From assembly GCA_947630135.1 (NCBI GenBank), contig CANRGH010000003.1:62001-126000 (forward strand): a stretch of DNA of 64,000 nt, written 5' to 3'. This document shows positions 3-4,087 of the stretch, piece by piece. Source of the stretch: an uncultured Monoglobus sp. (GTDB lineage Bacteria > Bacillota > Clostridia > Monoglobales > Monoglobaceae). The notes beneath the pieces were generated by a model, which was not told where the DNA came from, searched no databases, and saw nothing but the letters and a program-made list of their open reading frames with translations. Both the position numbers and the translations under genes were made by a program. Position 1 is the first letter of the stretch, and each line of letters opens with the position of its first letter.

Positions 3-2162
<2,160 letters not shown>

Positions 2163-2178
2163 AATTTAAAAATCAAGC

Positions 2179-2204
2179 GGCGGCATGGAATTCCATGCCG
2201 CCGT
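2179..2204 (+). terminator. hairpin after ppdK
   Basis: An 11-bp perfect stem (CGGCGGCATGG / CCATGCCGCCG) with an AATT loop lies 17 bases after the ppdK stop. The following T-run is short (TTCC), so it may act as an RNA 3' end or weak terminator. Confidence 0.6.
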
Positions 2205-2228
2205 TCCTATGACAAATGTGCGTTAAAC

Positions 2229-2829
2229 GCCGTAGGGGCGGACGACCTCGGCCGCCCGTCCTATTCGCTAATTACTAATCACTATGTTTGTAGGGCGGCT
2301 TGCCCACAAGCCGCCGGCCGGATGTGGGCATCCGCCCCTACGGTTTTGGGGCGAAACAAACGGGCGGATAATATCCGCCCCTACGGCGTTTTGCGTAATT
2401 TGTTCGTAAGGGGCGGCTGCGGTCGGAGCCGCGGGGCGGCAATCTGCCGCCCGTCCTATTTGCTATTCGCTAATTACTAATCACTATGTTTGTAGGGCGG
2501 CTTGCCCACAAACCGCCGGCCGGATGTGGGCATCCGGCCCTACGGTTTTTGGGACGAAACAAACGGGCGGATAATATCTGCCCCTACGGCGTTTTGCGTA
2601 ATTTGTTCGTAAGGGGCGGCTGCGGCCGGAGCCGCGGGGCGGCAATATGCCGCCCGTCCTATTTGCTAATTACTAATCACTATGTTTGTAGGGCGGCTTG
2701 CCCACAAGCCGCCGGCCGGATGTGGGCATCCGGCCCTACGGTTTTTGGGACGAAACAAACGGGCGGATAATATCCGGCCCTACGGTTTTGGGGACGAAAC
2801 AAACGGGCGGATAATATCCGCCCATACGA
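2229..2829. repeat. tandem REP-like hairpin cassettes
   Basis: No gene is seen here. A compound cassette of about 200 bp is repeated nearly three times: the landmark CACTATGTTTGTAGGGC starts at 2280, 2482 and 2678. Each copy strings together short palindromes flanked by GTAGGG...CCCTAC ends: GGGCGGATAATATCCGCCC, CCGGATG-tggg-CATCCGG, GGCGGCTTG-ccca-CAAGCCGCC and GGGCGGCAATATGCCGCCC. They are joined by an AT-rich linker (GCTAATTACTAATCACTA). The same modules recur near 32.8, 54.1-54.7 and 56.6 kb. The array ends about 10 bp before a RAYT transposase gene, the classical partner of REP elements. Confidence 0.9.
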
Positions 2830-2839
2830 AATAAATATT

Positions 2840-3325
2840 ATGAATAATAGAAAACATCCTCGTTTAAACGAATTTGATTATACACAACCCGGCGGATATT
2901 TTGTAACTGTATGTACAAAAAATAAATCGAAAATATTATGTAATATCGTACATGATATAAAATCAAACGAAACATCTGTTGAGTTATCCGCGTATGGCAA
3001 AATTGTTGATAAATATATAAGGAACATAAATGTGGTTTATGACGGTGTAAAAGTATCGAAATATGTTATTATGCCTAATCATCTGCATATTTTATTTGTA
3101 TTTAATGATTTACTTGATATTGAGCGCAAAGGCGCGGCGCGCCGCACAAGCTTGCAGACGATTATAAGATCGTTGAAAACCATGGTTACAAAAGAAATCG
3201 GCAAATCTATATAGCAGCCGTCGTTTTATGAAAAAATAGTGCGTACAAAAAGAGATTTTAAAGACATATGGAAATACATTGACGAAAATCCATTGAAATG
3301 GGTGAATGATGATTATTATATTTAA
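2840..3325 (+). pseudogene. RAYT (REP-associated Y1 transposase), interrupted by an in-frame TAG
   Basis: An IS200-like HUH transposase of the REP-associated type (Y1_Tnp family). The N-terminal part reads YFVTVCTKNK and then MPNHLHIL, which carries the His-x-His metal-binding motif. An in-frame TAG at 3212-3214 stops it after 124 residues, but the same frame continues to a TAA at 3323-3325 with the expected family C-terminus (QPSFYEKIVR, then IWKYIDENPLKW). The family has Trp just before this motif, so TGG to TAG is the simplest explanation. The stop removes the C-terminal segment with the Tyr residues expected to include the catalytic one. The gene is AT-richer than its neighbours, consistent with transfer. 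TAG is an ordinary stop elsewhere in the window. Confidence 0.88.
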
Positions 3326-3455
3326 TGTATTTTATATATAAGCATGTCCCCGGCGCGAGGCGGGGGGGCTGCTTTTGGGCTTTTTCTTGCGCAATGTGTG
3401 CAGAAAATTACTTTGATTTTGATTAAATTTGTGTAAATTTTACCGAAATTTTTTC

Positions 3456-3484
3456 TTGACAATATTTGCTTAAGGTAGTATAAT
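3456..3484 (+). promoter_or_regulatory. consensus sigma-A promoter of the S10 operon
   Basis: TTGACA at 3456-3461 and TATAAT at 3479-3484 are separated by exactly 17 bp, a perfect consensus, as expected for the main ribosomal protein operon. Transcription should start near 3491, giving a leader of about 290 nt. Confidence 0.9.
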
Positions 3485-3490
3485 AATCGA

Positions 3491-3778
3491 GTGTGACGCG
3501 ACCACGACTATGATCCCGGAGGTGGCAAACGGCGTGAATACGTCGGTTTGGGAATTTCGGGGGAGATTGTCCGGTTTCGAAAAACAGGGCGGAAGGTCAC
3601 ATTTTTATGAATACGGATTTGCTTTGCTCCCGCGGGATTTTTGCGGGCTTTTGGCAAAACTGTGTCAATTCCTCCCGAGTGCGTATCCGAAAGGATATGT
3701 TATTCGGGTTTAATTATTCGATCCGCGCGAAACGCCCGGCGCGGTGTAAAACTTATTATATAAGGAGGGTATTTAAGA
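3491..3778 (+). promoter_or_regulatory. long 5' leader of rpsJ, possible r-protein control region
   Basis: About 288 nt without a convincing gene. A short frame at 3510-3713 has no family resemblance. A GC hairpin followed by T's lies near 3630-3655 (CCCGC ... GCGGG then CTTTT), which could act as an attenuator. The SD before rpsJ (AAGGAGGGT) is strong. A leader this long between a perfect promoter and rpsJ suggests feedback control by an operon protein; that is inference. Confidence 0.45.
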
Positions 3779-4087
3779 ATGGCGACAGAAAAAATCAGAA
3801 TCAGACTTAAGGCTTATGACTCAAATCTCATTGACCAGAGCGCGGCTAAGATCGTGGAGACGGCCAAGAGAACAGGCGCGAAGGTTTCGGGCCCCATCCC
3901 GCTTCCCACAAAGAAGGAGATCGTCACGATCTTAAGAGCGGTTCATATGTACAAGGATTCGCGCGAGCAGTTCGAGCTCAGAACTCACAAGAGACTGATC
4001 GACGTTATCGGTCCCAACGGAAAGACGATAGACGCTCTTAAGCATCTTGACCTGCCCGCAGGCGTTGACATTGAATTAAAAATTTAA
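3779..4087 (+). CDS. rpsJ: 30S ribosomal protein S10
   Basis: 102 residues, the usual length. The protein sits in the head of the 30S subunit and in other bacteria also serves as NusE in antitermination. The family signature runs from [14 protein letters not shown] through the conserved RTHKRLIDV segment. First gene of the S10 block, preceded by AAGGAGGGT about ten bases before the ATG. An 84-nt gap with a small hairpin separates it from rplC. Confidence 0.98.

Follow-up and report, generated by a model that had tools for sequence, protein, structure and literature searches.

A probable recent RAYT pseudogene, cut by a nonsense codon at an invariant tryptophan, in a REP-rich Monoglobus genome

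The window, i.e. the whole stretch of 64,000 nucleotides that was analysed, belongs to one assembly of one genome, that of an uncultured Monoglobus species, a gut bacterium (G000 hereafter). Near its start, and on the forward strand, lies a gene for a REP-associated tyrosine transposase (RAYT), which is flanked upstream by the 3' part of what we take from its protein sequence to be ppdK (pyruvate phosphate dikinase; 12..2162, forward strand), and downstream by a gene that is presumably, on the same grounds, rpsJ (ribosomal protein S10; 3779..4087, forward strand). The RAYT gene (2840-3325) consists of two parts. The 5' part (2840..3214, forward strand) has 124 codons and ends with the nonsense codon TAG at 3212..3214, and the 3' part (3215..3325, forward strand) continues in the same frame to a TAA at 3323-3325. 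A preliminary description of this DNA had located the TAG at exactly this position and had noted that the frame stays open beyond it, which we confirm; the open tail has 36 codons, and the 37 given there are reached only by counting the stop. The 5' part includes the sequence N80-H81-L-H83, with His81 at 3080-3082 and His83 at 3086-3088, which is the HUH motif of the RAYT/TnpA-REP proteins (class 2 Y1 HUH enzymes), and both His columns are invariant among 16 relatives. The sequence YIDENP, corresponding to the Y...NP motif of these enzymes, is encoded by codons 146-151, downstream of the TAG, and is thus missing from the translated product.

The gene is flanked by dispersed GTAG-tagged REPs. 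A tandem array of GTAG-tagged palindromes (2261..2828, forward strand) precedes it, in which 127-nt copies start at 2261, 2463 and 2659 and are followed by a further copy of 57 nt (2772-2828); the units are 196-203 bp apart, and exact GTAGGG palindromes are present at 2290-2315 and 2688-2713. The three copies and the partial one in the window compare with a single copy at the corresponding locus of a sister genome (L004 in G004, see below), and the unit has multiplied here by tandem expansion on the spot. Local amplification of REPs has been attributed, in the available text of PMC8049555, probably to host replication and not to the RAYT. Among the 11 genomes with rpsJ, for which about 1.5 kb upstream of that gene was inspected, a RAYT is present at the ppdK-rpsJ site only in G000 and G004; the contig of G007 ends near the rpsJ site. 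Little beyond repeats and the RAYT gene separates ppdK from rpsJ in G000 and G004 (2162-3779 in the window), and in G003 (L052) and G009 (L055) rpsJ is 8-9 kb downstream of ppdK.

The identification of the gene as a RAYT, made before from the letters alone, is borne out by profile searches. Both halves match the NCBIfam family NF047646 (REP-associated tyrosine transposase), and they do so in order: scored apart, the 5' half matches profile positions 27-88 (E 2.9e-6, 27.2 bits) and the 3' half positions 106-133 (E 2.4e-4, 21 bits). Neither half reaches the curated cut-off of 80 bits when scored in this way, and we therefore do not file the gene under this equivalog. A profile built from the 16 relatives spans the entire gene with a single TAG inside (E 1.2e-65). 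The Pfam family PF01797 (IS200/IS605 TnpA) scores 13.6 bits against the 5' half, for a cut-off of 23, and gives no match across the whole genome at E 0.001; it misses this RAYT family and was rejected as a detector of it. A PRANC match of E 0.033 was put down to chance.

The relatives' profile also matches the TnpA-REP protein of E. coli of known structure (4er8; E 1.6e-10), and of the structures in the PDB it is again 4er8 that best matches the AlphaFold2 model (mean pLDDT 79.7) of the intact orthologue (Z 12.6, rmsd 2.2 over 122 aligned residues), which relates the gene to the solved enzyme in fold as well as in sequence. In the HMM alignment, window codons 125, 126, 135, 146 and 150 correspond to W94, Q95, R104, Y115 and N119 of 4er8, residue numbers that were counted by hand along the printed alignment. 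The TAG therefore occupies the codon equivalent to W94, and the equivalents of the other four residues all lie within 3215..3325, those of Y115 and N119 at 3275-3277 and 3287-3289, respectively. W125, Y146 and N150 are invariant among the 16 relatives. According to the available text of PMC6006769, W94, Q95 and R104 form part of a region to which recognition of GTAG is ascribed, though what W94 itself does is described as unclear, and Y115F serves as a catalytic mutant of TnpA-REP (PMC8266576, available text). All three residues of the recognition region are present in the intact orthologue, and all three are absent from the truncated product. In the model of the orthologue, a strand (residues 125-134) and a helix (residues 137-153) are both formed by the sequence from the stop onwards. 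The 124-residue product would thus be predicted to keep the HUH histidines, to lack the GTAG-recognition strand and the helix bearing the nucleophilic tyrosine, and hence to be unable to cut or transfer REP DNA.

Protein comparison gave as the nearest relative an orthologue in the Monoglobus MAG G004 (Clostridia, Monoglobales), which occupies the same ppdK-RAYT-rpsJ site and was recorded twice in our set, as L004 and L028. It is full length, has TGG at the codon in question, and is 97% identical to the window RAYT over 124 residues. The two genes differ in 13 of 162 codons: besides the TAG/TGG codon itself, eight differences are synonymous and four nonsynonymous (Nei-Gojobori pS 0.083, pN 0.0104). 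The excess of synonymous changes has a P value of 0.0006, or of 0.002-0.009 with transition weights of 2-8, in a test that involves 12 changes only and is silent on the branch of each. Because the differences are mostly synonymous, the gene was constrained until recently: purifying selection acted on it during most of the period after the two species separated, and on that scale the stop is young. All of the 29 distinct other RAYT loci with a matched Trp motif have TGG at this codon (31 rows, of which three repeat a locus already counted, plus L031, matched by eye); this set includes L004, relics, fragments and the copy on contig C5 of the same genome, and leaves aside L014, where the region is deleted, and the 5' fragments L003 and L039, which do not extend to it. 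Since the orthologue and every other matched locus carry TGG, an origin of the stop by one base change, from TGG to TAG, as had been proposed, is well supported by these comparisons. The same description had argued for a recent loss from the high similarity of the neighbouring repeats. Recency is favoured by the intact frame and by the 8:4 ratio of synonymous to nonsynonymous differences, whereas the similarity of the repeats is a weak sign of it, because these units multiplied locally in tandem, and such amplification is probably the work of host replication.

The rest of the genome was searched with the relatives' profile (E up to 1; 42 contigs), and only two other RAYT loci were found, neither of them intact. 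The one on contig C5 (L002, G000:C5:67407-67976), which sits between what we take to be a purine nucleoside phosphorylase gene and luxS, has its frame broken by a 93-bp insert. At the same site G004, G006 and G008 have an uninterrupted RAYT frame, and G007 has a related insert of about 93 bp together with a different nonsense codon (L033, G007:C12:64746-65311), an in-frame TAG that precedes the HUH motif. The insert of the C5 gene resembles window positions 54011-53927 (83.5% over 85 bases); this repeat in the window lies near several GTAG-tagged palindromes. The second locus, on contig C21 (L003, G000:C21:34099-34233), is a 5' fragment that is matched by one in G004 (L039, G004:C7:36947-37078), and both fragments abut the upstream region of a gene that is presumably der. 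All three RAYT loci found in G000 are thus broken, by three different lesions, and the sister genome G004 has two intact RAYTs. The earlier suggestion that spread of the repeats now depends on another copy elsewhere finds no backing in this assembly, where the other two loci are broken as well. The assembly (2.35 Mb, 42 contigs) is estimated to be 99.5% complete, and repeats tend to sit at contig breaks, so that a RAYT copy could be missing from it.

We class the gene at 2840-3325 as a RAYT pseudogene, whose product would not be expected to work as a RAYT. To the fuller reading, that a RAYT, an HUH/Tyr nuclease acting on GTAG-tagged REPs, was recently made a pseudogene by a TGG-to-TAG change at a conserved Trp, we give a probability of roughly 0.85. 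A competing explanation, in our view unlikely, is that the gene is in reality intact and that the TAG arose by an error of sequencing or assembly. It could appeal to the facts that nothing but the TAG disturbs the frame and that the sister genome shows TGG; however, short-read assembly does not typically introduce a lone substitution into coding sequence that is not repetitive, and the insert that breaks the C5 RAYT also occurs, in related form, in a second genome of the genus (G007), for which reason we regard the loss of such genes as real here. As the sequence comes from a single assembly, a base-calling error, and likewise a polymorphism between strains, retains some probability.

We consider it very improbable that read-through of the UAG yields full-length RAYT at a low level. 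The stop context, TAG CAG, is of a leaky type, and the 36 tail codons show two synonymous and no nonsynonymous differences from L004, as continued use of the tail would also produce; two changes are nevertheless too few to demonstrate continuing selection. Nor is the codon a conserved recoding site, as TAG occurs there in 0 of the 29 distinct other loci. Elsewhere TAG behaves as a stop. A gene in the window that we take from its C-terminus to be rpsK ends with TAG at the normal place; 17 of 61 long mechanically derived ORFs end in TAG, the RAYT being one (16 of 60 without it); and among the 32 tRNA hits, a set that looks short, 30 loci were scanned for the anticodon, none of which has CUA. Recoding of TAG was therefore set aside, and read-through, named in the preliminary description as something that would overturn the inactivation, left no apparent sign in the ORF ends or the scanned tRNA loci. 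The least credible proposal, to which we give almost no weight, is that the 124-residue fragment has a use of its own, e.g. binding of REP DNA or interference with another RAYT. The HUH half does remain open, but the presumed GTAG-recognition region is missing from the fragment, the genome search turned up no intact RAYT that could be its partner, and a stop at this codon is seen in none of the 29 other loci.

Under the preferred reading, the TAG would have arisen when G changed to A in the codon of the conserved Trp, a residue of the GTAG-recognition region, and would have made the RAYT a pseudogene. The truncated product, without the Tyr helix and the GTAG strand, would neither cut nor transfer REP DNA, and the REPs of this genome would now probably be without a transposase and change only via host processes such as local duplication, deletion and mutation. 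The REP type next to the window gene has five exact copies in G000, including those at 2290-2315 and 2688-2713, against three in G004, and the type present in the relics on C5 and C21 has 39 against 49. On the basis of these counts the REPs have not visibly collapsed in G000, which agrees with a recent loss of the RAYT and with the model of Nunvar et al. 2013 (PMC3686654, available text), in which REPs decay later, once the RAYT has been lost. Across 12 genomes, RAYT presence was considered as a simple driver of REP number and discarded, as no simple relation emerged. Exact copies of GACGGCG-type REPs, in-gene ones included, number 39 in G000 and 37 in G007, the latter kept even though the only RAYT found there is broken; 49, 36, 33, 11 and 0 in G004, G008, G003, G006 and G005, respectively, which have an intact RAYT (that of G005 carries other palindromes); and 12, 2, 0, 0 and 0 in G010, G009, G001, G002 and G011, where no RAYT was found. 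The 98-bp unit has at least 71 matches in G000, at least 52 in each of G007 and G004, and at least 46, 44, 40, 27, 23, 10, 1, 0 and 0 in G006, G003, G008, G010, G009, G005, G011, G001 and G002, respectively.

The relatives' genes have a further feature. In 19 of 27 RAYT loci scanned (a count in which the window-type gene of G004 figures twice, as L004 and L028), the gene contains two in-frame, mutually inverted GTAG palindromes with like stems, which flank the HUH motif on its two sides (L005-L015, L017, L018, L020, L022, L029-L031 and L034). Leaving the loop aside, the two stems are identical in 14 of these 19 genes and differ at one or two positions in the other five. When the pairings were permuted with one gene per stem type (seven hand-picked types), only 2 of 5040, the true one included, were as good; a permutation over all genes, which ignores kinship, gave 0 of 20000, and we prefer the collapsed version. 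L016 and L032, which have two palindromes each with differing stems, were left out of both tests. A single embedded palindrome is present in L035 and in the shortened L019, and none in L004/L028 and L021; none was seen in the window gene either. In L022 the first embedded palindrome has been amplified to five in-frame tandem copies (3097-3300).

One stem type occurs in exactly 4 of the 18 relatives' genomes, namely those whose gene carries it, and G018 has only two copies of that stem, 177 bases apart, as in the gene. A second type occurs in 9 of the 18, i.e. in the eight that carry it in the gene and in G014, which does not. Several of these stem-bearing genomes have few copies outside the gene. 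Both relics in G000 break at in-frame embedded REPs: the second palindrome of the C5 relic is interrupted, the repeat of about 93 bp in L002 and L033 being located inside it, and the C21 fragment ends just after the first. It is conceivable, then, that in this clostridial RAYT lineage the gene carries its own target in the form of two inverted in-frame GTAG-REPs at fixed positions flanking the HUH motif, that the two stems evolve together and in step with the REP family of the genome, and that RAYTs tend to break at these weak points, leaving genomes that, like G000, are RAYT-free but REP-rich. We hold this view tentatively, at somewhat below even odds, having lowered its probability a little because the stems of L016 and L032 differ.

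In-frame REPs inside RAYT genes are in themselves no discovery, and were rejected as such, since the available text of Quentin et al. 2018 (PMC6006769) already describes them in the tnpA-REP genes of subclass 2.4; intragenic GTAG REPs in other genes have likewise been published (PMC3733652, available text). In their in-frame REPs, GTAG feet and lack of a C-terminal extension, the relatives and the relics on C5 and C21 agree with subclass 2.4, and the embedded REPs of the relatives, taken alone, suggest membership in TnpA-REP subclass 2.4/RAYT group 4. In contrast to that subclass as described, the window gene and its orthologue L004/L028 have no GTAG palindrome in the gene, and many relatives have two inverted palindromes that flank the HUH motif, whereas the paper places the insertions generally between HUH and Y. 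In the passages and sections consulted, among them some of PMC6006769 and PMC3733652, neither the arrangement as an inverted pair nor RAYT breakage at such palindromes is mentioned.

With the E. coli TnpA-REP/RAYT protein (4er8), the window gene shares the HUH and Tyr motifs, the equivalents of W94, Q95, R104, Y115 and N119, and the fold. It differs in being cut at the equivalent of W94, and in that 15 residues follow the Tyr in its read-through frame, compared with 50 in the 165-residue E. coli protein. The closest parallels to its loss are the RAYT pseudogenes, due to nonsense or frameshift mutations and with persisting cognate REPs, of the Pseudomonas fluorescens complex and Stenotrophomonas (Nunvar et al. 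2013, PMC3686654). Loss of such a domesticated transposase by nonsense mutation, with the REPs remaining, is therefore, going by the available text of that paper, of a kind already described, and is routine in itself. The sister pair, in which both genomes are REP-rich and one has two intact RAYTs (G004) and the other none that was found (G000), offers a way to test the model of REP decay after RAYT loss, through the number and age of REPs in further strains. Relative to the published pseudogenes, as far as the available text describes them, the present case lies in another phylum, and every RAYT locus found in the genome is broken, each by a different lesion.
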